A DNA stretch of 64,000 nucleotides. Origin: Gracilariopsis chorda (lineage: Eukaryota > Rhodophyta > Florideophyceae > Gracilariales > Gracilariaceae). Location of the stretch: NCBI GenBank assembly GCA_003194525.1, contig NBIV01000002.1, forward strand, positions 1,054,001-1,118,000, written 5' to 3'. Each line of letters begins with the position of its first letter. Positions within the stretch are counted from its first letter, which is position 1. The notes under the pieces are model-generated. The model made no database searches, was not told where the DNA came from, and saw nothing but the letters and a program-made list of their open reading frames with translations. Below, one piece after another: positions 1,269-47,435 of the stretch. A program made the translations under genes and the position numbers.

Positions 1269-4200
1269 TTTACCGCATGACCCCACCCAGCCTCCCCACT
1301 GACGATCAACACCAAAGCGAACGATCCCTCCGCCAACAACGGCGAGAGCATCGAATCGAAGAACAAGAGTATATCCAACACTTGCTCCACAACACGCAAA
1401 TCAACGCAGCAGACAACACACACCCTACCGGACACTGCACAGCACAGCGGCAAAATATCCAACAACCATCCGAAACTACCAACCCTATCCTACAACAACT
1501 TCCAATTTTGGAAGTCCGCACTCAACATCAACGCATCCCTCTTCGATGCGTCCAACCTTATTACAACCCAAACAATCATACCGCACGTCGACCCTGCAAA
1601 ACTCGAAACACATATCACCAAAATCAACAAAATCAAGGCCTTAGTCATCCAAAGTATCCCAGAGACCATCGCCACAAAACTCACCGGAGACATCGTCCAA
1701 CTATCTCAGTTTGAAATTCTTCAACTCATCGAATCACATATAGCGAACAAAAATCGCCAAAACCACAACGTACTCGAAGCTGAGGCACGTAGCATATTCT
1801 TCCTCCCCGGTACGGACCTAGACAAATACATCGAGCAACACGAAATCGTCCGAACCAAAATGATAAACGCCGCATATCCAAATATCCAAGCTGAGGGCAC
1901 CACGGTAAACGTCATGATACAAGGACTCAGAAGACACCCCGACTTTACAACGCTTGCCATAGTACTCACAGGCAACCCACCTGCAACCATTCAATCATTC
2001 GAAAACCACATAAGACAAGCTCTCTTACTCCAAGACGACTCTCAACCAAGCACAAACGTCCAGCCTCCCCCACACAGAATATATCTACGCCAGTACACTT
2101 CATGGCCACTACAACCTCGCTTTGCACGTCCCAGATCATTTCAGCTGACCACCCCGATCGACAAACGATGCCCTAAGCCAGAAGGATGGAAAGGACCTTG
2201 GTGCACATTTCACGCATCTGGCACGCACAACACAAACGAATGTCGATTTCGCCGCAGATTTGGGCAGCCTCCACCACAATATCAGGCTAGAACAATGCGA
2301 ATTGACGACAGCATCAATCCCGAATTATAAGAACTCGCCCTCCGCCTGTCCACGATCGAACAGGCCATGCAGCCGCATGCTGATAATACACAAGACGGTA
2401 CGATATATGCTCTCGACTCCGCAGCCCACCCTTCCTATATCACCAACAAAACTGAGCTGCAACTGCTGAACACACCACTGACTACCAAAACTGCCGACGG
2501 TCGAACGCACAACGTAACACACCGTGGACTGATAACGCTGCCAACGAGCAATAAACCGATCACAATCCGGACAGCTCTATATTCCCCTTCTCTGCAGTCA
2601 AATCTCATCTCCGTTCACGACCTAGCACGGACATATGGCAAAGTATCATTCTTTCCAAATTCAGCCTTCATCCATGACCGTCGAAACAACAACAAAGTTA
2701 TCGCTTTTGCCACTCACACCAATGGCACTTATGTACTGAACACCACAAAAATGCGTTGCAGACCGCAAATAAAGAACACGTTATCAGCATATGGCACGCG
2801 CACAATATCCCACAATCGCCACCGACCAACGTGCAAACGGGCGCCACGCAAGCCACAACAAGCACACCAGGCGAACAACACGACCACCAATACGAAGCAA
2901 CCAGCGTTCTTCATACCGACCACCCAACCAGCGCTTCCAAAACATCTGCACAGCATTGCCATCGACACGTATTCAGAGGCGAAACAAACCCACGTTAAAC
3001 TGATGCACGATTGGCACTTGAGACTAGGACCCCCCCATCCACGCATGATCCAGAAAATGGCAAAGCAACGGCTGCTACCCAACATCCCTGAGATATTGGC
3101 AAAACCTGCGGCCCCCATCACCTGCAGCGGCTGCCATACAACGAAACTGCGCCCATCTCCGCACCCAAAAACGACACACACCACCATCCCTGGTAAACAG
3201 GTGTCCTCCGACGTAATTGAACCCATTTTGCCACCGGCGCGAATCAACAACAACAAATATGCGATGACGTTCATGGACACTGCAACTAGGTACCTTTTTC
3301 TAGCCCTCCTTGCCTCCCGAAAGGAGGTTTTCAACGCGATCATGCAGCATATTGAGACCGTTCGCAACCACACAGGCCGCTATCCTCACTTATTTCGATG
3401 CGACAACACCGCTGAATACACATCAAGGCGGACGAAGCACTTCCTCCAACAGCGCGGCATCACCCTCTCGCCTACGATTCCCTACACACCACAAGAAAAT
3501 GCGCTAGCGGAAAGGATTAACCAAACACACATGCAGACTGCCAGATCAGCACTGATAGACAGTCAGCTGGACGAAACATATTGGGGCGCTGCGCTGCTTG
3601 ACGCTGCCTTCAAATACAATAACACATAACACACAGCAATCGAAACCCTTCCCCACACAGCTTGGCACGGGAAACCTCCACGAATACCAAAAATTATCGC
3701 CTTCGGCCAATTGGGATCCATACCATCCCTCCTCCCGAACAATCACAAACTACAGCGGCGAGCGGAACCTGTGCGATATATGCACGGCATTGACGAAAAC
3801 CACATAGCCGTTATGAACATCCGCACGAGAACATACCACATAGCCAGCACCTCTGAATTTCACCCCTATTACCCTCACCTAGACCCATGCCGCGACACAA
3901 ACCGTGTGTCCAAAGCATTCCAACACAAATCTAATCACAAAACCCAGCGAAACATCCACAGATCACGACGGACCCCCCAAACCCAAATCCCCACAAACAT
4001 TACCACCAACACGCCCCCACCCAAAACCACAAAAAATACCAGGCAATACCCGGACGCTGCGGAATGGAAAAAAAGCCATGACGCGGAATTAGACACACTG
4101 GATGCCACGAAAGCCATCGATTGGTCCGCTCAACCCCTCCCACCACGGCAATACATAGTACCAACAACATGGACATGCCGATACAAGTGACAAACCCCGA

Positions 4201-5654
4201 CCTCCATCCAGCTCAAAGCACGATGCTCCTTGCAAGGTGACCGAATGAAGCCACACATCCACTATGACCCACAACACACGGCGTTATACATAGCCGACAA
4301 AACAACAATACGATTAATCCTTGCATTGGCTGCAGCACACGATTTACATCTCGAACACTTCGACACAACAAGTGCCGCCCTCCACAAAAAATACGATCCA
4401 TCGAAAGACGTATTTGTATGGCAACCAGCGCGATTCGATGGCAGCTACAAACACTCTCAGCCAGCCAGGAAACTTCTGCTTAAGCTCTATGGATCACCAC
4501 CGGCTGGAAATATTTACTCAACCGCGCTAAAGCAGTTTCTCATCCGACATGGTGCCCAACAGCCCAAGTCCGACCCCTCGCTCTACATCATCCGACATCA
4601 AGGACATTACGCACTAATGGTCATATCGACTGATGAATTTCTCCTCGCCGCCTCCCATCCCGTCGCATCCAATGAGGTTCACCGAATGCTATCACTTAAC
4701 TACAAAGTGAAACGAATTGGATTTCCCGCCAACTACCTGAACTGGAGGATCCGTCGCACTGACGACGGCATACACATATCCCAGCCTTCGTTCATCAGTA
4801 AATTGTAGGCAAAGCTACGAATCCAGACCGCCAACCCAACAGCTACACCCTATCGATCAGGTGTTGCCTGCAATGCTCCCGTCGAAACCAAACCCGGATA
4901 TTCCAAAGTCGCCTCACTGTACCGCGAAGCTGTCGGCGACTTGCGATACCTCGCCGATTCCACCCGCCCCGACGTCGCGTTTGCCACCTCTGTTCTTGCA
5001 CGAGCGCTGCAAAACCCTACAGCAAGACACTGGAACCTACTCAAAGCCGCAGTTAAGTACGTCGGAAGCACACCGCATCACGGCCTACTATTCCCGAAAC
5101 GACCAATCCATCAACTGATAACATACGCCGATGCCGACTTTGCAACCTGCAAAACGTCGCGAAAATCAATAAGTGGACATGTCCACCAACTTGGCGACAG
5201 CTCTATATACTGGCTTGCAAAAAACCAACACACAGTTGCAATGTCCACCTGTGAAGCCGGATATGTATCAGCAGCTCAAGCTGCACAAGATTTGCTCTGG
5301 CTGCAGAACTTGCTGCCACTCTCTACGTGGACAATGAGTCAGCGGTGCAAATTGGCAACAATACTGCGCCAACCAAGAAACGCAAGCACATTGATATGGA
5401 ACATCACTTCTTACAAGACCATGTCTTGAACAAACGGTTCAGGCTCATACACATACCGGGTCATCAAATGCGTGCTGATGCACTAACCAAACCACTGCCC
5501 AAACCCCTATTACTGAAGCACATGCACAACATCGGCGTCATTCCTGCCCCTCCCCCTCGCATTTTCGGGATTGAGACGCCGAAAACGGCTACGAATGCGA
5601 GGGCAAGTGCAGGAAAGCACGCCACCACCCTTGACGCACCATTGCACGAGACGC

Positions 5655-5787
5655 TGAAGACGCCGAACAGCAATACCACGTAAGATAGACAGCTGTCAGT
5701 AGCTAGGCACCACCAAATAAAATATGCACCGGCCGCCGCCGCACGGGGGTTGCGACGGTCCGGAGAGGATTGCGAGCTTTCGTCTCA
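5655..5787 (+). repeat. Copia-B right LTR
   Basis: 133 bp copy of 1124-1255, followed by the second GGTAT target copy (5788-5792). Confidence 0.9.
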
Positions 5788-5792
5788 GGTAT

Positions 5793-6276
5793 TCGAATTG
5801 ACCACAGAGGTGGATGAAGAAAGGGTGAACTAGAGCCAGAAAGACGGTAAAACCAGAGACCGGTTTCCCACGTGATATGGCGGTTTAGGATATACCCGGT
5901 GAAGGGTGCCTTCCAAGGACAGGGAAAAACCACCCGGCACGTTGTGCAGAAAGCGGAAACAGACCCAAATGAGGGTGCAAATGCACGAGATGTACGGACG
6001 AACTACCCAATAAAGGGGCGGTACCAGTACTAAACGGTAGATAAATGTCCCTCGATAAATATAACACAGGGTATCTGTAGGTTTGCCGAGCGGATGAACT
6101 GAGCGAACTGAATGCAGTGAACCTCTGCAATAAGTAGTGCACGGCGCAACGACGTTACAATCCAGAGCCGGATACCTCAGGTCAGACGGAACAGTCATGA
6201 TGACAGAAGTGTCGGGATTACTTTACTTAGTGCTCGCAACGACAAAGTCGCGCGCACCTAAGTCGTTACCCTACCA
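5793..6276 (-). repeat. Gypsy-1 3' LTR, piece 2
   Basis: Matches the 5' LTR from about 15604 to 16088 with substitutions. It ends in TACCA (6272-6276), which is repeated at 7041-7045. Confidence 0.85.
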
Positions 6277-7040
6277 TATCTCCACTACAATCATTTACAT
6301 GCTTATGAGGGGGGTGTTCTTTATTGAATGGATGCAGTGCGCCAATAAACCGCACTGTATGCCCCTCTACTCGCATGTAGAACTCCCATTTGGCGGAACG
6401 CCTCCCTACCATTTAAAACCTTCAGCAGCAGCAGCAAAGCTGGCTGCTTAGTGGCTGGCACTCCCATAATGACTGCATTGCCAGCCAGTTACAGAGAGCA
6501 ACTTGTCGCACTTTTCCCTCATTGGCTGAAACTGCTGTCAATTTGGTCACCTCCACACAAACCCTTACGGCTTCAGAAACTCTAGGTGCCGCGGCGCCCC
6601 GGGTTTCTACGAGCGCTATTGCGAGCGCAAGCGAGCAAAGTGCTCGGAGAGCCTCCAAACACTAATAAATCAACAGAGCTACAAAAACGACGCGGCGCGC
6701 AGCGACACCCACGGCCGAAGGCCGTTTCTACTTGTCAAATCTAACTAAGTATTTGTGCGACAACGCCCTTCGCACCCCTTAAAAAATTTGTAAAGTGTAT
6801 GATTTCTTTTTTTTTTGGCACAAACTGCGCCAGCACCCAATATCGTGCTTCACGCTCATATTTTTAGCCTTTTCGGTTCATTAACGTTTTGTGCCAGTGA
6901 TAATCAAAATTTTTTGGACAACGAAAACGTTTAATTCTCAGATTTGTGACCACTCAAGCTCTGGCCCTACCACTCTTTCCTGCAGGAAAGATGCAGACGT
7001 CACAACTGCAGGAAGGAGTGGTAGAGCCGAAGGCCCTTCT
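6277..7040. mobile_element. 764 bp unclassified insertion in the Gypsy-1 LTR
   Basis: This block is absent from the matching place in the intact 5' LTR (near 16088) and is bracketed by TACCA on both sides, consistent with a 5 bp target duplication. No TG/CA ends, terminal inverted repeats, poly-A tail or coding sequence are evident. It holds GC-rich stretches (6580-6720), a T-run near 6808, and a strong inverted repeat near its right end. Class unknown. A solo LTR of an unseen family or a non-autonomous DNA element are both possible. Confidence 0.6.
6963..7028. repeat. 23 bp inverted repeat (hairpin)
   Basis: The arm at 6963-6985 (GGCCCTACCACTC...CTGCAG) and its complement at 7006-7028 differ at only two positions, with a 20 bp loop. 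Confidence 0.85.
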
Positions 7041-13150: not shown

Positions 13151-13799
13151 CAGAAGACGCCGCTCCCAAAGGCGAATCTCTCAAGACTAGTTTTTAAAAG
13201 CGGGTTGCACCAGATTTGGTATCTGGACCACTTCGGGGGATCCCGATTGAAATCCATTTGCAGGTACTCCTTTTTCAACCTGGTTACAAAGCTTAGGTGC
13301 TCGAACGGCATCGTCTGTTGACATCTGATGCAGATATTCCTGCATACACTTCTGCGGTTGGTATGACGCATTCCTAACGCGAGTCTTCTCCTCAGGCGTG
13401 AAGGCTTCGTACTCTGCGATGATCTTGAAACGGCCCAGTATGGGGAATGTGCATATGGGTGGAACATGACCTTCTAATTAGCAGATAGAACATATCAGCT
13501 GGGCTGAAGCATTGGATGGTCGATTTTCCACCCCATGTTGTGTTGTGTCCTTTCAACCCGGTTGGGTGTGACGCGTACCGTTGTTTGCCTCAGCGAGCTG
13601 AGTGGCCGGAACTCGAACGCCTCCGTAACAGGCAGGGTCTCCATCTGCCGTCGGGGTAGGTGTTGACAGGAGATCAGTAGTTCCCAACGAGTCTGGGTCA
13701 CTTCCAGCAAAATGGGTGTAGTCTTTATCACCAGTTGCAATTCCATCTGGCAGTAGCGAGGAAGAGCATGATTCTTCTACTTGAAGAGCTCTCGACGGT

Positions 13800-15290
13800 C
13801 AAGCTTCTGACGGATGTCAAGCATGATAACTATCTCTCTCGGCTTGGGCAAATTGAACCCATTCGAGGTAAGTAGCTCTCTGTTTCTTATCGCGATGGCG
13901 AGCAACTAAAGATCTGGTAGCAGCATCGAGACCATCAATAAACATATTGCAGCGTTCCTGGGCTGTATACACGTTAAAACAACGGTGAAACGTCTTATTC
14001 AAATGCGTCGAATAAACCGTTTCGGTCTCTTGAGGCTTCTGCTTTGTATTGCACAAAGGGATTATAGCATCTTGTATACCATCACCAGTTGCGTAGGACC
14101 TTAGAAGATATTGAACCGCTTCTGGCCGACAGGTTACCCTGCCCTCCGATGACAAGAAGATCCACGACCAGAACTAAACAGAACTTCAGCCATACCGGTT
14201 AGAAAGTACGGTAGAGCGACATACGCTTGTGTTTCACTCATCCCGAGTATATCAGCGTCCTAAAAGAACTTCGCGAGAAAATCAAGAACCAAGATTGGGT
14301 CTTTATCAGTAAACCACTTCCGTAAGGTGAGACTCATTCTTTTGATATAGTCCCCAACTTTTCCGGTTCTTCGTGGTGATCAATCATTCGATGAATCGTT
14401 AAGGCGATAATATCGATACGATAACAGTTTCATGAAAAGATGATTCGTCGGACTAAGCTCTTTATGCCCAAGGTGGCGCTATCCCTTATTGCGAGTGCGA
14501 ATAGCTCCCTGAGTTTGGTACGTGGCCTTAGAACGTGTCGCACGAGATCTGCCGGGACCAATATCGGAAATCGATGAATACGAAAAGAAATCACTCGAAT
14601 GACTGTCAGAGTCTGAACCTGATGAATCCAAGTGGATGCTAACACCCTTTTTGGATTTAAGCTGACTTCGTCTGCAAGAGTAGTGAATCGAACTAACGAA
14701 TGTACCTTCTTCTTTAGCACGTGCGTCCACGACTTCATCAATTGGAATTGTTTCTGCAAGAATACTCTGACGCGAGAGAATTCGAACTGTCGTTTCACGA
14801 ACTTTATCATTAAACATCTGATAACCCTACACAAAAGGCTCAAGTGTACCATCATGTTCCAAAATGGAATTCAAGTCCTGTCTGAAACGACATAGATCGT
14901 TAGAGACGTCCTGAACCTAGACGTCTTCAAACTTATGCCTAAGCTCGGTTACACTCTGCAAGAGTTCTACATGTGTCGCCGCAGCGTTTTCCAAGCGAGA
15001 CTGGATGCAAGATAACTTCGGAGCAAAATTGTGACCCAGAATAACTGCTGTCAGTGTCTAAACCACAGGTTCATTAACCATTGCGACTTCTTGCGGACCT
15101 GAAGTAACAAAGGGTGCTGTCGGAACATCCGGGTCGACCTCATCAGTAGGTGAATTCTCAACGGTAGAACCACGCAAACGCGTTGCAGCAGGGTAGGGAA
15201 CGCCTGAAGATTCTGCACGAGAAACCTTAGAGGGTGGAGACATTTCTCTATTGGTCAGCCAAACCAAGCAGAGTAGAGAAGAGCTCAATT
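13800..15290 (-). pseudogene. Gypsy-1 gag region
   Basis: Minus-strand reading between the 5' LTR and protease. It starts near 15290 with a low-complexity Ser/Pro-rich stretch and holds a retrotransposon-gag-like helical segment around 13.8-14.15 kb. Placed as gag by position and by similarity to the same region of Gypsy-2. Broken. Confidence 0.6.
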
Positions 15291-15466
15291 ATGCGATATC
15301 AAAAGAACGGAGCACAAAACAACATATCTTCACCGAGATCTCTCGAACCAACCATGATGGTACCACTGATCACCAGTTCTTCGACTTCCACGTGACTCTT
15401 CCTTCTTCAAAGTGAACCAATTATGGTTTTTTTGTTGAGTTAACCACGCACGGTTCAACCTATCTA

Positions 15467-16414
15467 TGTCGGGAGACCACTTGTAGTGCAAAACCTGAAG
15501 GTTGGGCATCACACTCAAGGTGTCCAGGGCCTTGCTCCCTGTGGAGGCAGACCCAGTGGAAGAGCCCTCTGTATACCTGCAATACGGAAGTAACTCCGTA
15601 GGTATTTCGGATTGACCGCAGAGTCTGATGAAGAAAGGGTGAGCCAGAGCCAGAAAGACGGTAAAACCAGAGACTGGTGTCCCACGCAATGCAGCCGTTT
15701 AGAATAAACCCGGTGAAGGGTGCCTTCCGAGGACATGGAAAAACCACCCAGCGGGTTGTGCAGAAAGCGAAAACAGACCCAACGGAGGGTGCACATGCAC
15801 GAGATGTAGTGAACGAACTACCAAGTACAGGGGCCATACCAGTACCTCACGGTAGGTAATGTCACACGACAATTATATGCCAGAATATCTGTATACCCAG
15901 CGGGTGAATTGAGCGAACCGAATGCGGTGACGCTCTGCGAAGAGCAGTACACGGCGCAACGACCTCAAAATCTAGAGCCAGATACCTCAGTTCAAACTGA
16001 ACAGTTATAAATGACCAAAGTCTCGGGATAACTTTACTTAGTGCTGGCGACGACGAAGTAGCGCTCACCTGAATAGGTAGACTACCATAATAAATTATAA
16101 TAAATTACTACAATAGTGCACACCTCCTCAGGTCCACACACGTGACCAGCCCAGTTTCAGGCATTCTGAGGGGTCAATCCAAGTATAACATAACACTACA
16201 GCATGGTAATGTCACACACGTGCACACGCATCCACTCATCCTGCAATATATTCTAGATTCCTACCTTCCTAGGTGAAACCTCACACCGTAAACCATCGCA
16301 TTGGCATCACCTCGTAGGGTTCCACCTCATATAAGGTAGAGCCGTCACGGTAACTGCGTTACATTCCTGTGAGTAGCATCATCGCGATTTCAACGCATTT
16401 CGCGTTGCACCACA
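15467..16414 (-). repeat. Gypsy-1 5' LTR (intact copy)
   Basis: 948 bp, TGTCGGG...CACCACA on the plus strand. It is the reference used to recognise the three pieces of the other LTR, and it shares its edge sequence with the Gypsy-2 LTRs. Confidence 0.88.
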
Positions 16415-34049: not shown

Positions 34050-35970
34050 AGTTTTTAAGGGAAACGACTCACGGAGCTCGGTGTCACTATACCATGATGG
34101 GAACCAAGAGTAATCCTATTCTTGGGTGCGACCACTTCCACCGGTTGATCAGGGGTTGGTTTAACCATGGGAATAGACGTTTGTGCCAGTGCCATGTTAG
34201 CCAGTAATGCTTTCACCTCTTCATTAGAAGTACTAGGCACTTTGAACCGATCAGCTGGGGTCAGCGTTTCGATTTTCACGATATCCATCGGCAGGTTTAA
34301 GAATGTCAAGTCACATTTTATTTCGATATAGCCATGATGGTAACATCTATGGCAGATAGACGGTGCCGCTTTGTCTTATTGACGATGGCTATCCGTTTGA
34401 TGCTGGGACTGCGGTAATATCCTTCCGAAGCGAGTGAGATGGGATCCGTTTGAAGCGTGAGTGAGCAGAGTGGCATGCATCCGTGCGGCAGCAGCGTACA
34501 AAGCATTGTATGTCTTCAACATCTGCACTGATTTTGACTACAACTCCGTATTTCCGAACAATTAAGAGAGACTGCTTGCGTACTGGAAGTGGTCCACATC
34601 CGCGTTCGCGGTTTTTCCATGGAGCAATGTAATTGGATTTGACAATTTCTCAAAATAAAGTAGATCTCGTCGGCCGTCGTTTTGGTTGACTCCGCGTATG
34701 GTGAGGTGTTCACCTAGCTTGAAGATACTGGACCAGTTAGAGGTAGGAAATCTTCCGTTTATTCTCACGGTATTGCGTGACGAGCGCTTGTTCTGCCGGA
34801 TCAATTCCATCAACAACATCGGGCACCGCTATCGCGCGGAGTTCACATTTGCTCAATGGTGAACTGCTCTATTCAAGCGGTTGGACAGACCGTTTTGGTC
34901 TAACCAGAATTCTGTTTCGTATCACGTAGAGCGATTATCGCCGTATGAATGGCACTTCCCGTGGCGTATGACCTGAGAAGGTAATAAAACGCTTCCTGCG
35001 AGCAGTTTATTTCTCCTTCCCAGGCTCTGGAGCTTCCTCGAACGGCGTGGAACTGATCTTCACCCATACAGGTTAGGAAATAAGGTAACGCACATTACGC
35101 TTCGGCTTCACGTATGCAGAGTATATCAGCGTCCTGAACGAACCTGGGTAGCAGTTCAAGCACAAGAGTTTGGTCTTATTCAGAGAAACGACTCTATTGA
35201 AGAGTAATATTCATGCGCTTGTTGCAATCCATAACCCTGCCGCTACCTATTAAAGACAGAGTAAATGAAGAATCAGCTGATTGATAATAACAATACGATA
35301 AAACTTTCTGATAAAGAGGATTCATGGGCTTTAACTCTTTGAGTCCCAGGTTATGTCTACCTCTCTCGGGAGAGTGAGTAGCTCCTTTAGAACTATACGT
35401 CGCCTTAACCTTCGTCGCGGAGTACTTCCTCTGTTCATTATCAGAGTCAGATGAATCCGAAAGAGAATCTGCGAAGCGTCGATCAAAACCAGAATCTGAA
35501 AAAAATGTACCAAGGCAGTGAACATATTTTTAGGGTTTACAAGCCTTTCATTTGTTCGAGGGGTGAGTTGAATCGTAAGAGACGACTTGGATTTCCATTT
35601 TACTGGGCACTTATATATCCATCTGGATGGTGACTTCTAATGCTTCTAAACGAGCGCGCACAAGTTAGAGAGCCACCTGGACATCATTTACAAACTTTTT
35701 GTACTTCTGGGGAACCAACCATTTTAAAATAGAGTTCAAGTCCTGACGTAAGAGTCGGATCTCCCCCGAAAAATCCTGAGCTTGGGCATGTTCGACTTTT
35801 TGATGAAGTTTGTTCACCTGTTTGAGGAGAGACACATGAGCCACCTTGGAGATGTGGATCATCGACTCCATTCGAGCACGCTCAGCTGAATCCACAAAAG
35901 GGTAAGCTTCAGACTGTGTCAGGACCACTGGGGGTCGTACCGACTGGGTGATAGGGTGTGGGGCAGACAA
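34050..35970 (-). pseudogene. Gypsy-2 gag region
   Basis: Minus-strand remnants between the 5' LTR and pol, including a heptad-like segment near 35.67-35.97 kb (VSLLKQVNKLHQKVEHA). Placed as gag by position and by correspondence with Gypsy-1. Broken. Confidence 0.55.
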
Positions 35971-40300: not shown

Positions 40301-41271
40301 GACCGGCTTCAATAGAGCACAGATTGTTTTCATCGTCTGAAGAAAAACATTATCACATTTTTGGACGCAGACAGTATTAGCATCTCTGATTTAAACAAAC
40401 TCCAGAGACTTTGGTAGTTTATGGCTATTTTAATACAGTTCCAGTGCTCAGAGCACGTTAGGCAGAGAGGTGACTTGAGTTTGTAATATACGTTCATATT
40501 CCAACTCATTATATCAAACACGTTTGATAGATATCCGAGATCGATTCGTAATGGCGGAACAATAGTTCTAATGATAACGTCGTTACAAAAAACCAAAGGT
40601 GGGAAGTGTACTAGTAATTCTCTTGGCTTTGTTTAGGAAAATCGCAGTAAAGATGCATGACGTGCAGGTGGTTTGCTGTAATAATGCCTGGAATTACATG
40701 TGAAAGCCTTCGTGTTTTGAATAAACCTCTTTTCTTTGTTTTTATCGATGTTTCAATACGCTTTCTTACGTTTGTTGAGTGGGGATTTACTGGCGGAAAA
40801 CTTGCTATAGCGGTAAGTCAGAAGGAGAATGTGTTGTTTTGGCCGTGTTCTTGAAGTGCCATGACGCTGGCCTTCATTTTGATATAAGGTTCACAAACAT
40901 TAAACAAATTTGTCAAACTTTCGTTTGTGAACTTTCCTCAATTAGGCCTACATCAAATCGTCAATCAGGTGTTAAAAGAATTTGGAAACACGTTTTAATG
41001 ATGGCAGAAACGTAGTTTTTTTCTATGACAAAATGTTCCTATGGCTGTTCTCGACTAACTGACTTGCAACGTGCAAGCATAGCTTTGTACCGCCATTGCA
41101 TACCGAACTTCACAATAAAAGCTTTGCGCTGGGTGTGTTAAAAATAGTTGCGCGCAACGTATGATATGATGAAGACCAAACACGGTTATAATGGGTCGAT
41201 CCTGAAACTGTTTTTTGGCCTTGCCCCAAAAACATAGCGTCTATCGTTTTTCCAATTTAGTACGCTGCTTA
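40301..41271. other. unassigned spacer
   Basis: No supported gene. Ends in TTA (41269-41271), the left target copy of the Harbinger element. Confidence 0.35.
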
Positions 41272-41311
41272 GGGGCGTTCCATGAGTTGACGAAACTCTG
41301 AACTCGAAATC
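41272..41311. repeat. Harbinger-1 left terminal inverted repeat
   Basis: 40 bp, perfectly complementary to 47393-47432. Confidence 0.97.
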
Positions 41312-41480
41312 GGAAATCGGTAGATACGCAATCAGAAGATCACACATTGCATACGTTCGTTTCCAGTTTCCGCTTCCGACTGCAACCCACCAGCGCCTGT
41401 AGTCCCCACAAAACGGAAACCGTGTTCCGAATTGTCTTCCATAGTGAATGCCACGTTCTTCGTCACATGCAGGAACATGA

Positions 41481-42846
41481 ACTCGTTTTACCCCGCTAGA
41501 GCACGCGCGCTTATCTACAACTGACGCTCAAGATGATGGCGATAGAGACGTGACAAAGAAAGCGAGTGATGACAAGACAGCAACTACTGGAAAGGAAACC
41601 GACATTGCAGAACAATCGCTAACGATACCGAAACGTGTAGAGCATGGCATCCAAATTCTAGACCAATGCCACTTTGATAACGTCCACTGCAAGCTTTCTC
41701 TCAAATGTTTGAATATTGTAGGCGCACAAAACGCAAAACTGGATACTAAGCACAAAGTTCTAGCAACGAAAATGGTACAACGAAAAGTAAGCTTATCGAC
41801 AATTTGTAAGCTAATTGATGGTTGTGGATGCACTAGTAGCTTGGATTGCGCATTTGTGAATGGACTACGAAACACAACTGTACGAATCAAGCGCAATGCT
41901 CGCGACCATGAGGAAGTGATATGGGTGAAGGGCGATATACCTGTTTTCGTTGATGGTAAAATCGTTATTGGAGAACCTCCTCTTGGTGCTGAAAAGTCCG
42001 CTTCTGTTTCTCAACTTCAGCGTAGACCGCCGTTTGAGGCAGTAGAGTTCTGTCGATTACTGCATGTTACAGTGGATGCCCGGATGGTTTCCGTTCGGGA
42101 AAAGCTCATGGATTGCATGAAAAAAGTAGAGCTCGACAAGCAAAGGGAAGACCCATGGTCCGAAGCAATTGCTCCACTATTCAACGATCCTGATTTTTGG
42201 CCAGACCCGATCTCCGTAGTAGGTGGAGGTGTGACGCGCGATGATATATGTTCAATCAATCCGGCAAATCGTAGTCATTTACGAGATGGTGATATTCTCA
42301 AACGCAAGTTTGGGGAGGTCAAAAGTTTATACGGAACATGTATAACAAGGTACGAAGCATCAGGTCAGAGAGATCCTGAAGCTTTTGTTAGCTACGCAGA
42401 CGGTAAGATCTATATTACGTATGATTTTCTGTTTTTTTCGTTTACATCTAATTATGGAACCGCTTTGTACTAGAGCGCTGCGAAGTGATTTCAAACAAAA
42501 AGCTGGAGTTGGTGTAGAAGTGTCACAGTATGGCTGTGGATCTCCTGCAGTGTCACAGTCTAGATCGAAACGCGCAAGACCTGATAACAGTCGCATTGCT
42601 TCTTCGGGATTGGAGTCTTTGGCTCCTGCGCTTACGCCGCGTGACGAACATGTCGCGCGGGAAATGGAGAAGGCGGAGCGTGATAAAGTTAGGTTTGAAG
42701 CGGCTGAAGCCCATGCTCGCAGCACCAAGGCTTCATTGGAGATTATTCTGAAAGTGAAGGACATGCTAAAATTTTTTTCATGTGAACAGGAGAAGAAGGT
42801 GCTGCATGGTAGTTTAGAACGTTTGATGTGCAATCTGGATGGTTAA
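41481..42846 (+). CDS. Harbinger accessory (DNA-binding type) protein, one probable intron
   Basis: Open from 41481. No ATG occurs in frame before about 41772, so the start may lie in an unseen upstream exon. The first part is a folded, Cys-containing region. The middle (42160-42400) has the pattern DPWSEAIAPLFNDPDFWPDP, IxxINP, RDGDILKRKFGEVKSLY and SGQRDPEAF, a layout I associate with accessory ORFs of algal and oomycete Harbinger-like elements. Its role would be guiding transposase to the termini. A GTAAGA donor at 42403 and AG acceptor at 42474-42475 define a 73 bp intron that keeps frame into a basic linker (SRSKRARP). A charged coiled-coil tail follows (EMEKAERDKVRFEAAEAHAR), ending at a stop at 42844-42846. 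Intact apart from the uncertain start. The family call is from memory. Confidence 0.6.
42403..42475 (+). other. probable spliceosomal intron, 73 bp
   Basis: GTAAGA donor, T-rich stretch (TTTCTGTTTTTTTCG), AG acceptor at 42474-42475. Removing it joins the two frames of the accessory ORF without a stop. The nearer AG at 42472-42473 would not keep frame. Confidence 0.6.
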
Positions 42847-42993
42847 ACACCGCACCCAACGCACCAATGCCCCAATATCCGCCGCACTCTCCGCTAAACT
42901 CTCCCCTGGAGCACGCTACTCCTCCGCCAATGTTGATCTGGACCTTGATGCAGCGCTTCTCGCCGCCAAAATCGCCGAAGCCTACGCCCAGGC
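42847..42993 (+). other. short spacer inside Harbinger-1
   Basis: A plus-strand Ala/Leu-rich run (DLDLDAALLAAKIAEAYA) precedes the Met-Gly repeat in another frame. It may be part of the captured gene or a filler piece. Not recognised. Confidence 0.35.
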
Positions 42994-43044
42994 ATGGGAA
43001 TGGGTATGGGTATGGGCATGGGTATGGGCATGGGTATGGGCATA
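42994..43044 (+). repeat. ATGGGY hexamer repeat (Met-Gly codons)
   Basis: About eight ATGGGT/ATGGGC units in tandem. Read in the delta-COP linker frame they give repeated Met-Gly. Confidence 0.95.
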
Positions 43045-43860
43045 TCATCATCGTTTTCATTTGGTCGAAGTAGTAATGGTCCGCCACCGGTCACTGGCAC
43101 TGCTGCGAAAAAGGGTATGTCACTTGGGAGATCCAAGAACCAAGACTCCTTGTTCGAGTCTTTGCGCCCTGAGAGAGAGGTAGTAGATGCTTCCATCACC
43201 CGTGTTAGAGGAGCTCATGCCGCTGCTGCTGCTGCTTACGTTCCACCCACACAAGCAGTGCAGCAGTGCATTTGTCTTCCGTAGAGAAGCTCAACCTCAC
43301 TGTTTCGAGGGACGGTGGAATTCAAACCATGGAGGTGAAGGGAGATCTTATGCTTCGAATCACTGACTCTAGCAAAGCCGCGATTAGGCTACAAGTCAGC
43401 ACTGGAGGAGGAGGAACCCACCGTATCCAGTTCAGGACGCACCCGAGTGTTGACAGAACGCTTTTCTCAACGCAAGGTATTGTTGGTTTGAAAGACCCAA
43501 AACGGCTCTTCCCTACTGATAATTCTCTCGGAGTCTTACGCTGGCATCTTGCTACGAAGGACGAAAGCGAAGCACCGTTACTCAATAATTGCTGGCCGAG
43601 TGACAGTGGTGACGAGTCTGTCGTGAACATTGAGTACGAACTAGGAGCGAACAAAGAATTTCGGGACGTTGTCATAGCAATTCCAATCTTATCTGGCAGC
43701 CAACGCACCGTCAGCCAATGCGATGGAGAATTTGTGTACAGCTTAAGATCTCAGAGCGTTGAATGGCACCTGGCCGTTATTGACCAGAGCAATTCCCAGG
43801 AATCCCTAGAGTTCTCCCTTGGTGCAGATGATGCGAAGGCGTTCTTCCCGATTAACGTGG
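42994..43860 (+). pseudogene. ARCN1: captured coatomer subunit delta (delta-COP) linker and MHD region
   Basis: delta-COP is a subunit of the COPI coat for Golgi-to-ER vesicles. The linker after the Met-Gly repeat matches its family: KKGMSLGRSKNQDSLFESL. The mu-homology domain follows, with landmarks VEKLNLTVSRDGG, FRTHPSVDRTLF, GLKDPKRLFP, LGVLRWHL, NCWPSDSG, VNIEYEL, DVVIAIP and SLEFS. The longin-like N-terminal half is missing. The match stops at FFPINV (about 43860), some 40 residues short of the usual end, and continues without a stop into a Tic110-like segment. A tandem duplication of eight bases (GCAGTGCA, near 43247-43265) shifts the frame between linker and MHD. It lies within Harbinger-1, so this is a truncated captured copy. 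A complete gene presumably exists elsewhere. Confidence 0.85.
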
Positions 43861-43869
43861 GCCCCAGCG

Positions 43870-45115
43870 GAATAATGCTTGACGAATACAAGAATGGTTT
43901 GGAAAGATTGCGGGATCGCCTTGGATTATCGAAAGAGGATGCAGATGCCGCATTCAACAAAGTTGTGAAGCAGAGAATGTTGGTTTACGTTAATAAAGCC
44001 ATTTCTCAACTTGAAAAGCGGTCCCATTTAAGGGGACAGAGTGAAGAGCGGGACGTAGGAGATGATCCCAACATCAAAAGGGCTGGAGCGGTTTTGGGTA
44101 TAGACGCTGGCAGTCTTCCCATAGAGCTTTCCAATCTTGTTGACTTTTACGTCCATAACGGTTTTGTGATAGAGCAAGAAATTGAGGCTGAGGGAGAGAA
44201 CCGCACCTTTGCAACATACCCGGTTACCCTTAGGGGCGATCTTCAACCAAAGGTTTATAACCAGCTATATAAGAACAATATTTCATCCAATGCTTCAGCG
44301 CCCAGACAAGAAATGAAAAGCAACGACTTTTTTCTGCTCCCGGTCAGCTTGAATTGATCTTGCGAATGACGGAAGAAGAAATTGGCAAGATCCACTCCGA
44401 GATTGGAACAGTTATATACAAGAACTACGTGAATCAGGCGCTGCTGAGAGGCTCGATAGAAGAGAAAGACTTTGATTTCTTTTCGAACATCCAGCGAATG
44501 CTTAGCATGAAACCTGATCACTGTCAGGGTCTTCTGAGAGATGCGAAGGAAAATCGGGTTTCTGTGCTTCTAGAGAAAATATTTGCTCAGTTAAAGGTGC
44601 TCCCAGAAAGTGTAAAGAAGATGAGAACCACAGCAGCCACAGTTGAAGTTGACTTTGTTAAGGACCTGAAGGTTTCTGCCCAACAGAGAGGGAAGTTGTT
44701 TGGTGTAGAAAGGGATGCCGCTATTGATACTGGGGCTCTTTCTCCGGATAACCAATCACTAGTTGCCGAATTACATACAAGCTTGCAACTTGGCGATAAA
44801 ACCACGAAGAATATTCTTCTCGAATGTAAACAACGTCGAACGTTGTCACACTTAGTGCAAGCTGCTGCCAGTTTGCGACAGAACAGGTCAGAATCTGCTG
44901 TGGCAGAGTTGAAGACTATGCTACGCTACGGGAAACTACTGCCAGCAAAAGTGAACGCCCCGGCTGTTTTGGTCACAGAAAAGCAATGGCTGTATCTCTT
45001 GTTCCAAGCTGATGTGATTACGGGTGGGGCTGTAAAGGAATCTGCCCGGGAACTAATCAATCTGCTGAAGACAATGTTTGGGTTTTCTGATGCCAACCTG
45101 GAAGTCCGCGTTTGA
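43870..45115 (+). pseudogene. TIC110: captured Tic110-like segment, fused to delta-COP
   Basis: Tic110 is a chloroplast inner-envelope protein whose helical repeats face the stroma and bind incoming proteins and chaperones. The segment is almost all alpha-helical: ERLRDRLGLSKEDADAAF, GAVLGIDAGSLPIELSNL, then TEEEIGKIHSEIGTVIYKNY, SNIQRMLSMKPDHCQGLL, LLFQADVITGGAVKESARE and LLKTMFGF near the end (45115). Repeated LG(L/I)..E-type helical units resemble the repeats of Tic110. Identification is by pattern and memory and needs a profile search. No membrane segments are present. It continues the delta-COP frame up to 44357, then shifts frame once near 44330-44357. It ends about 330 bp before the hydrolase fragment, which is on the other strand. 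Confidence 0.55.
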
Positions 45116-45446
45116 AGCGTATAACCCTCTAACTAATACATTCCAGTAGGTATGTATAGTTCACCATAAACGTTTGTCATTGTATTCGAAAACCAGGTGA
45201 ATCACAATAGGCTTAAAAGTGGTTGAGCCCTCTGTCGTTTGAACCATAGCACGGAGGTAACCTTTAATTTTTCTTATTGTTGGTTCTTAGAAGTGACAGA
45301 GCCCTCTTGGCCAGGAACAACTTTGAACGTTCGGCTACTGACTCAAAGAGTTGCGCATATTGTTATTCGATCCCAGGAAGATCCTTCACAATGGTAAACA
45401 ATAATTTCCCGAATCGGACACTTTTCTCCATACCAATGAAATTCTT
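45116..45446. other. spacer between convergent genes in Harbinger-1
   Basis: Lies between the plus-strand Tic110-like end and the minus-strand hydrolase end. It would hold both 3' ends. No further gene recognised. Confidence 0.4.
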
Positions 45447-45959
45447 TTATAAGGAAGGCATTAAGAATTCAAGCACATCTGGCTGCTCCTTACAACGGGA
45501 CAAAAGAGTTTCAACCACTCGTATGCCGTCCTCGCCCCATACGCCAGTGCGATACTCCTTTAATGCGGATAGGGCCACTTCTGCCTTTAAATCTGAACCA
45601 ATTCTTGAAAGAAGTTCTGCAACGGCACCAATCACTCGTTGACAGCCCTGTGCGAAATGCTTGTAAAGTTTGATAACAGATCTCCAATGGAAGCTACAAA
45701 ACCGTACAACTGATTTCAGCCCATTATGCCCACCGGCGCTGCCTTTCGCTCGTAGTCTAATGTCTCTGAGATCAAGCGATATATTGTCTGTCACAACCAC
45801 CAGAGCTGCGACAAGAGCGTCCATGTACTTAAGAGCGGCGCGTACTGCGCGACCGGAGGCGTTCATAAACGTGCTTGGTTTGAGCAGCATCACGCTTCTG
45901 TTGTACAAATGGAAGTGCGCTATGTCTCCCTGCACGCTGCTCTCCCGCCGGTTCTTCAT
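45447..45959 (-). pseudogene. pth: captured peptidyl-tRNA hydrolase fragment
   Basis: Peptidyl-tRNA hydrolase frees tRNA from dropped-off peptidyl-tRNA, in organelles and bacteria for this family. Residues 27-85 of the 170-codon frame match its middle: VMLLKPSTFMNASG (family LLKPxTxMNxSG, Asn kept), VVVTDNISLDLRDIRLR (catalytic-site Asp kept), then GSAGGHNGLKSV (GGHNGL, Asn kept). The N-terminal third with the catalytic His (the TRHNVG region) is absent, so it cannot be active alone. After residue 85 the sequence stops resembling the family. The helical tail (AELLSRIGSDLKAEVALSAL) could be yet another captured piece. The ATG overlaps the transposase stop as ATGA, so the fragment lies directly downstream of the transposase on the same strand. 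Confidence 0.75.
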
Positions 45960-47305
45960 CGTAAAAAACCCATTCTGTGCAGTTGTTCAGCGACATTATC
46001 GCGAAGCGTTGAAGATTGACGAGACCGATTTCGGGACCTCAACCTGTCACATTCAATTTGAAGCGGGTCTTGAGAACTGACAGCCGGGAAGCCGTGTACA
46101 TGGATTTCTTCGTTTCTTGGGATGTATTCAAACAGAAAATCATCTGCATTATCAATAATGAAGTTGATGATCAGAGGTGCTTTTCTAAAGGGATGCCTTA
46201 TTGCAGACCAAAAGGTACCTAATCTGCTGACAAGCATACCGAAAGCCTGTTCCACTATTGTGCGACAAGAGGAATGGTACGCGTTAAAAGTGTCTTCCTT
46301 CTGCGTCAACTGCTTTCCAGCGTACGGTGAAAGCACTCTACCCTCGTTGCTGTACGCATCATCAGCGACGACGGCGGCCCAGTCCGGCAGAGTACAACCT
46401 TTCAGTACTTGGTAAAGTTTCGTTGCAGAAAAAGCTGTCGCATCATGAGTGCCTCCGGAATGCATGGCCGAAAGAAAGCAAAACCGATAGTCTCCCTGTA
46501 CGGCGGCCTGTACGCATAACGCAAAAAATCCTTTTCGATTGTAGAACGTGCGTGGATCAAGAGCGTCACATAGACGAGGTTTCTGAACTTCGATGGCAAT
46601 TCCATCTAACGCTGCAATAATGCCACAAAGAGGATTATTTCGCAGTTTGCAGAACATTTTAGCATTCAATTTGCATTCTCTTTCGGATTGTAGGAAGCTT
46701 ATTGGAGGTAGACAGTTCTTGAGAGCGAACAGTGATTCCTGAAATAAGGAATAGAGAGTTGAAGTTCCTATGCCGTACGGCCATCCAAAGTCCAAATAGC
46801 TTCCTGCTGCCAGGATTCGTAGAGTGACGAAAAGCATCACTTCGATGCTTACTGCGGCAGCTACATGACAATTTTTGCGTTGCTTTCTTTACAATTGCTG
46901 ACGCAAACTCGACGAAAGTAACCTGAATTGAAACTTTGAGACGCGGTACATTCCCCTGAAAGCGAAGTCGGAAATGCTTCCAATGTGTTGAATTGGGGAA
47001 AATGGTGGACGACAAATGACTGTTCGGATACTCCTACTGGAATGCTCCGCGTCCCATACGTGTAAGAGATACAAGGGTACGAAACGTTTGATATCTTCAT
47101 GTTGTCGTCGTCTACGACGGCCCTTGATGGTGTCATAGAATGGTTGGCGGGACTGGAGTACATCCAGATAAAGTGTTATAGGTCGTGGCATTTGCTGTAG
47201 AGGAAGCAAGCAGCCGTATGGTAATGAAAATGTAGATAAGGCCGAGGGAATGTGAGGTTTGTAGTCCCCGCATGTGGTGACGACGTGAAGCCAACAGAGT
47301 TGCAT
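45956..47305 (-). pseudogene. Harbinger-1 DDE transposase (DDE_Tnp_4 / PIF-Harbinger type)
   Basis: 449 codons on the minus strand from the first ATG of this frame (47305). The C-terminal 300 residues form the nuclease: AALDGIAIEVQKP (first Asp), then FYNRKGFFALCVQA, GGTHDATAF, AVVADDAYSN (second Asp) and IVEQAFGMLVSRLGTFW (Glu), the DDE triad in family spacing. Before it, ILAAGSYLDFGWPYGIG matches the helical region upstream of the domain. A single stop codon at 46889-46891 interrupts the frame between the N-terminal and catalytic parts. Both sides stay in the same frame, so the copy is one change from open unless it is spliced or read through. It acts in the nucleus on the 40 bp termini, and its stop overlaps the ATG of the hydrolase fragment. 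Confidence 0.85.
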
Positions 47306-47392
47306 GCTCTCTGCAGCCTCATCAGGTTGGTATACAGGCGTCGTTGACTAGGAGCATTACTGTTCAAGAAGCTGACAGGTAAATTCGGCTGT

Positions 47393-47432
47393 GATTTCGA
47401 GTTCAGAGTTTCGTCAACTCATGGAACGCCCC
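47393..47432. repeat. Harbinger-1 right terminal inverted repeat
   Basis: 40 bp, perfect complement of 41272-41311, followed by TTA (47433-47435). Confidence 0.97.
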
Positions 47433-47435
47433 TTA

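Follow-up and report, generated by a model that had tools for sequence, protein, structure and literature searches.

A two-gene PIF/Harbinger transposon family of a red alga in which the space between the genes probably served as a replaceable slot for host DNA

Transposase-bearing PIF/Harbinger elements with host DNA are already known. Pifvine-3 of grapevine combines ORF1, a transposase, and transduplicated host sequence that is sometimes common to several copies (available part of PMC2528002), and Turmoil-1, a Harbinger element of C. elegans, holds a transposase together with pieces of two host genes (available part of PMC2572040). Pack-TYPE elements are defined as non-autonomous and without a transposase match (available part of PMC8903248), and accounts of gene capture by cut-and-paste transposons usually start from the end products found in non-autonomous copies. 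We analyse here a stretch of 64,000 nucleotides from the red alga Gracilariopsis chorda (contig NBIV01000002.1, positions 1,054,001 to 1,118,000), referred to below as the window. Positions 41272-47432 of the window form one PIF/Harbinger element of 6161 bp, which belongs to a family with two genes arranged tail-to-tail. The space between these genes has, with good probability, acted as a cargo slot that was filled and replaced by host DNA more than once.

The host genome was searched over 91.3 Mb in 1081 contigs, where the window is C2:1054001-1118000 and the element C2:1095272-1101432. The element shows the hallmarks of its superfamily, namely a 3-bp target-site duplication (TSD) of the TWA/TNA type, terminal inverted repeats (TIRs), and a DDE_Tnp_4 transposase. 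The transposase and accessory genes are convergent and face each other across the cargo, which includes part of a peptidyl-tRNA hydrolase (PTH) gene. In window coordinates, the features are as follows.

41269..41271: left TSD, TTA
41272..41311, plus strand: left TIR, 40 bp, 40/40 complementary to the right TIR
41272..42843, plus strand: left backbone (element 1-1572), ~92-93% to the canonical copies
41477..42846, plus strand: accessory gene, broken (frame break soon after the start codon; 1-nt insertion at ~42424)
42851..42994, plus strand: relic of the ancestral capture, 144 bp, from the bZIP gene of host locus C237 (element 1580-1723; L049 615-759)
43006..43858, plus strand: delta-COP fragment (element 1735-2587), 93% to its donor at C236:87397-88247
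43858..45718, no strand assigned: 1.86-kb chunk copied without interruption from host locus C29 (element 2587-4447), 95.3% identical
45715..45951, minus strand: relic of the ancestral capture, part of PTH (element 4444-4680; L049 6743-6979), common with the canonical copies
45952..47432, minus strand: right backbone (element 4681-6161)
45956..47305, minus strand: PIF/Harbinger transposase gene (DDE_Tnp_4), broken; Pfam PF13359, 1.8e-20
47393..47432, minus strand: right TIR, 40 bp, 40/40 complementary to the left TIR
47433..47435: right TSD, TTA

An earlier note on this DNA had proposed a single Harbinger element holding transposition genes as well as host DNA. The 40/40 TIRs, the TTA flanks, and the matches to DDE_Tnp_4, delta-COP, Tic110, and PTH bear this out, and the search for further 40-bp ends that it suggested recovered 11 other copies with paired ends. 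A 26-nt end pattern matches the genome 33 times with up to 3 mismatches, against 0 matches for the reversed control, and together with the 12 two-ended copies this argues that the pairing of the TIRs is not due to chance; the 129-bp left end has 36 genome matches. Host genes do lie between the repeats, as they would if two unrelated insertions happened to flank ordinary host genes, which the note had named as one outcome that would undo its reading. This explanation is refuted, as these ends recur in 12 copies (identical 3-bp TSDs in 11), the copies have a common backbone, and intact donors are present elsewhere.

The 12 copies with both ends, the window copy included and all from the same genome, form the basis of the family comparison. 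Their TIRs differ at 0-5 positions in 10 of 12, and at 14 and 21 positions in the two oldest. The identical TSDs are TTA or TAA in ten copies and TGA in one (C186), while those of C125 are not identical. The C846 and C338 copies have common flanks and were counted as one insertion; same-flank copies on C846, C338, C671, C663, and C71 represent a single insertion, present either in a segmental duplication or in haplotypes that remained unmerged. For three of ten insertions (C127, C2a, and C107), the joined flanks match unbroken repeats elsewhere (best 40 of 269 candidates), and insertion was therefore precise. The joined flanks of the window element gave no match to an empty site among the matches listed (best 40 of 269 candidates).

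In the host genome, the captured pieces of the window element map to three separate donor loci on contigs other than that of the element. The donor genes at C237, C236, and C29 (L049, L031, and L030) are open and extend past the capture edges. L049, the 7.5-kb stretch read of C237, contains four adjacent open genes on alternating strands, encoding a bZIP protein, a DEAH helicase, galactose-1-phosphate uridylyltransferase (GalT), and PTH. The C236 donor is a delta-COP frame of 639 codons, which shares 80% identity with the Chondrus crispus delta-COP and, across half of its length, 87% with a transcriptome protein. Its captured counterpart still matches Adap_comp_sub in Pfam (2.8e-27) but is frameshifted, and its left edge lies within a GGNATG repeat.

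The C29 chunk comprises the 3' part of Tic110 on the plus strand, intergenic DNA, and, on the minus strand, the 3' part of the convergent neighbour gene, which is thus a fourth host gene in the window element (45264-45718). In the element, Tic110 scores 2e-5 in Pfam, below the cut-off; the name is secured by the host frame at C29, which is open over 917 codons up to the end of the stretch read and scores 2.1e-36. It faces a 412-codon open frame without a Pfam family. PTH, which matches Pfam at 1.4e-22 in the window element, was considered as part of the C29 donor and rejected, as it belongs to the canonical element. Delta-COP, Tic110, and PTH are therefore not the three equal captures that had been supposed: PTH is an inherited family relic, with four changes common to six of six copies, and Tic110 and its neighbour arrived as one chunk. 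The captures took place at the DNA level, including intergenic DNA and genes on both strands, and the junctions show ~0-4 nt of microhomology. For the order of capture, comparison of delta-COP (48/845 differences) with the C29 chunk (85/1859) gives a P of 0.21. Besides the neighbour gene, the bZIP relic, the premature TAA and 21-nt deletion in the transposase gene, and the breaks in the accessory frame had been overlooked. A 382-aa open frame on the plus strand (43209..44357) joins delta-COP to Tic110 in frame and, if transcribed, could possibly give a chimeric protein.

The history of the slot can be read from the parts of C237 that the copies retain. Sequence comparison indicates that an ancestor copied ~6.4 kb of this four-gene locus between the accessory and transposase genes, and the copies keep differing parts of L049 611-6979. 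A single left edge (L049 611-616) is common to the canonical, C333, C142, C287, C125, and window copies, and the right edge, where present, is at 6978-6979; in the PTH relics next to it, the four common changes hold for every element copy compared. Six canonical copies are full, with lengths of 8284-8292 bp that exceed that of the window copy, and retain L049 611-1081 and 5433-6979 (+/-4 nt) with 3.2 kb of C27 in between. L049 611-4218 is kept in the C125 copy, 611-1125 and 1489-4218 in C287, 615-759 and 6743-6979 in the window copy, and 1312-1949 and 6130-6240 in C186. That the first capture was one uninterrupted stretch of 6.4 kb of host DNA, placed between the two gene halves, would also be expected of composite transposition, in which two elements flanking a host segment moved as a unit and provided the first cargo. 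We regard this origin as improbable: no inner TIRs were found, the matches to the end pattern in the window element (<=3 mismatches) being the two outer ends only, the 7.5-kb read of the host locus matches no element end, and later captures replaced only the middle.

An additional 2.7 kb in the C287 copy was considered as a host gene and rejected: its similarity to window 13661-16380, a dispersed repeat, is 69%, and Pfam assigned no family above the cut-off to three of its frames. In the window, positions 13661-16380, 35054-35349, and 5928-6273 are 67-70% similar to this extra DNA and represent a dispersed repeat, probably another mobile element. The C142 copy carries a 2.6-kb insertion inside the element (L020 2240-4828), probably a nested mobile element.

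The C27 chunk, carried by all six full canonical copies, C333, and C142, contains two complete genes, RING and spermine-synthase-like, both of which are open in the host. At the host locus (L050), both genes lie wholly within the chunk, and the sequence flanking it has no match in any of the 15 copies compared. The backbone tree groups the canonical copies, then the window and C142 copies (70% support), then C186, C333, and C125/C287/C93, and thus places the window copy inside the carriers of C27 cargo. In the window and C142 copies, the left relic also shows a common 1-nt deletion, and the right relic two common changes. Given this tree position and these common changes, the C27 chunk most likely disappeared from the window lineage as delta-COP and the C29 chunk entered, in what would be a swap of cargo.

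Delta-COP is present in the C186 copy as well, where the edges of the capture differ and another piece of its donor locus is found too. Over 845 columns compared with the host gene, 48 sites are private to the window copy, 13 are private to C186, and none is shared; if 10% of the window changes predated a common capture, the absence of shared changes would have a P of 0.006. One common capture was rejected on this absence, and by comparison of the sequences the two lineages evidently captured delta-COP independently. In C186, a dispersed repeat of ~310 bp (L016 2384-2696), found in at least 13 other places (best 40 of 218 candidates), splits the captured locus.

These observations are most likely explained by a scheme in which synthesis that starts at both ends repairs an excision gap, or a break within the element. 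The growing end would switch template to unrelated chromatin and be joined there through ~0-4 nt of microhomology. In this way the ancestor would have acquired the C237 locus with its bZIP, DEAH helicase, GalT, and PTH genes, and later lineages would have shed parts of it and taken other chunks, from C27 in the canonical copies, delta-COP and C29 in the window copy, and delta-COP in C186. Only products that keep the ends and both genes would stay mobile, so that cargo would accumulate between the genes; gap repair with template switching is thus proposed as the reason why the ends and both genes are kept while the middle turns over. The main rival places the switch in replication, with a stalled fork moving to the donor before transposition, instead of in the repair of an excision gap. 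Such replication-coupled switching has been published for animal Pack-TIRs (available part of PMC8277862), and it accounts for junction microhomology and for multicopy elements with cargo. The present data do not separate the two routes, and the retention of both edges of the older cargo fits two-ended gap synthesis slightly better; we consider the replication route the less likely one, at perhaps a minority share of the probability.

Both transposition genes of the window copy are broken. The transposase gene, with 28 homologues of which the best is 67% identical over 76% of the query, is interrupted by a premature TAA at codon 139 (46889-46891) and has lost 21 nt in frame at 46165/46166. The accessory protein has seven homologues in the protein collection, the one that is named being from Chondrus crispus (47% identical). 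A GT-AG intron in its gene near 42412 was rejected: the frame continues through this stretch in other copies and in a foreign homologue, so that the window copy has a 1-nt insertion. In PIF/Harbinger elements, the second gene typically carries a Myb/SANT-like DNA-binding domain. No Pfam domain above the cut-off was found in the accessory protein (window piece and four relatives), while the gene itself is present and conserved. Elsewhere in the family, the transposase frame is free of stops and frameshifts in 3 of 11 copies (C70, C2a, and C333, the last with a 6-nt deletion), and one of 13 left ends has a full accessory frame (C338), in a copy whose transposase has four stops.

The view in the earlier note that the window copy could spread host fragments by itself is therefore not supported, and with both genes broken this copy cannot move on its own; being dead now, it could be moved only in trans. 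For the family as a whole, cargo-bearing elements have amplified, three of which retain an open transposase. The Tic110 chunk was found in no other element of the genome. Perfect termini had also been taken to imply recent movement. The terminal branch of the window copy is long (0.0415, compared with ~0.015-0.025 for canonical copies), which weakens this claim, although perfect ends at such a divergence have a P of ~0.04, which hints faintly that the copy was later mobilised in trans.

Most of the cargo looks like decayed passenger DNA. In the window copy, the delta-COP changes are distributed as 11/20/17 over the codon positions, and the Tic110 part differs from the host by 4.3/3.8/5.3%, with 4.6% in the stretch between Tic110 and its neighbour. 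In the C27 cargo, seven of eight copies have a common 7-nt frameshift in the spermine-synthase-like gene (codon 359), and seven of eight a common RING stop at codon 91, and the eighth carrier (C333) has frameshifts and stops of its own. Changes from the host that are fixed in all eight carriers number 4/4/5 by codon position in the spermine-synthase-like gene. Apart from RING, the captured DNA would thus appear to be neutral. In the transposase, the changes fixed between the canonical copies and C287/C125 are skewed (12/4/19; P 0.008 against equal positions), and those private to eight copies are more even (58/41/55; P 0.20), which suggests, on a weak test, that the transposase was probably preserved during the spread of the lineage with cargo.

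Several observations weigh against the account of a slot filled repeatedly by repair in a self-propagating family. The contrast between fixed and private transposase changes is weak (Fisher P 0.08), and no copy with both genes open was found among the family copies examined, so that self-driven spread of cargo is drawn from the history of the family. Short microhomologies also fit other repair routes. The absence of shared delta-COP changes could also result from later conversion of the C186 copy by the host gene. C186 retains L049 1312-1949, which is lost in the C27 carriers, yet C333, one of these carriers, branches outside C186; exchange between copies or a wrong node in the tree would explain this conflict. 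Finally, the RING changes fixed in all eight carriers are distributed as 2/1/10 (P 0.004 against evenness). This skew, and the presence in eight copies of a chunk with two complete host genes, would be expected if cargo were retained for a benefit to the element or its host, as in selected transduplication. For the present copies that explanation is largely refuted by the disabling changes described above and the even spermine-synthase-like counts, and we hold it to be very improbable; the excess in RING may have arisen as constrained change on the host side, or may reflect early constraint in the element before decay.

The arrangement extends beyond this family. The genome contains at least 94 transposase-like and at least 91 accessory-like places (best 94 of 397 and 90 of 197 candidates), with at least 61 convergent pairs within 15 kb. 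The spacers of 61 pairs, measured between matched parts and hence lengthened by partial matches, are 155 bp in four, 0.88-2.4 kb in 14, 3.2-8.0 kb in 42, and 14.4 kb in one; 11 of the 42 pairs with long spacers are copies of the window's family. Both genes are without stops in the compact pairs at C128:29481-31993 and C54:39277-41750, each with a 155-bp spacer, which makes them candidates for currently active elements. Outside the window's family, the interiors opened were C41 and part of C258 (3.0 kb), and both of these further families hold host genes between the transposase and accessory genes. The C41 spacer contains valyl-tRNA synthetase-like and EF-hand/glyoxalase sequence, the latter with a donor on C140, in a frame that is open over 558 codons (95.8% over 2030 bp), and the 3.0 kb of C258 contain a DUF676 esterase, with six further copies at 94-96% over the whole stretch. 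C108 and C191 are likely donors for the C41 and C258 families. A transposase homologue (P0005) and an accessory homologue (P0030) come from one source whose largest contig is 3440 bases, which suggests that cargo-free compact relatives exist in other organisms.

As 42 of the 61 convergent pairs have spacers of 3.2-8.0 kb, most members of the clade may bear cargo. More tentatively, and at somewhat less than even chances, the whole tail-to-tail Harbinger clade might possess a cargo slot that copies multi-kb host loci, keeps the old edges, and swaps the middle, with competent members spreading host genes and sometimes re-using a donor. Among the top matches of the literature searched, whose coverage left out most subscription papers, there was no red-algal case. 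With donors, stages of the cargo slot, and compact relatives with 155-bp spacers in one 91-Mb genome, the order, edges, and repetition of captures are directly readable, so that how transposons acquire genes becomes testable in a small genome.

The comparisons that follow rest on the available parts of the cited papers. Like Pack-TYPE elements including Pack-MULE, the family has TIRs, a TSD, captured gene fragments between the TIRs, and amplification (PMC8903248); unlike them, it has a transposase gene, broken in the window copy. Microhomology at the junctions and capture in the element interior are features of animal Pack-TIRs too, which are attributed to gap filling and FoSTeST, but most of those elements are single-copy, and 56.9% of their donors lie within 15 kb (PMC8277862), whereas here the family cargo is amplified and the donors are on other contigs than the window element. 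The Ectocarpus Harbinger likewise has two tail-to-tail genes and a TNA target pattern that covers the TGA of the C186 copy (PMC12477816), while host-gene cargo in Harbinger does not figure in the available text of its description. In Turmoil-1, pieces of 205 and 131 bp lie inside long terminal repeats of one full copy (PMC2572040). In Pifvine-3, an element of a flowering plant and not of an alga, the additional sequence occupies a long 5' region of up to 3.5 kb (PMC2528002), in contrast to the space between tail-to-tail genes that is used here, where single captures reach 6.4 kb and four genes and are replaced over time. Compared with Pifvine-3 and Turmoil-1, the new aspects are thus the inter-gene slot, the multi-gene chunks, the replacement of cargo, the recurrent capture from one donor, and the occurrence in an alga.

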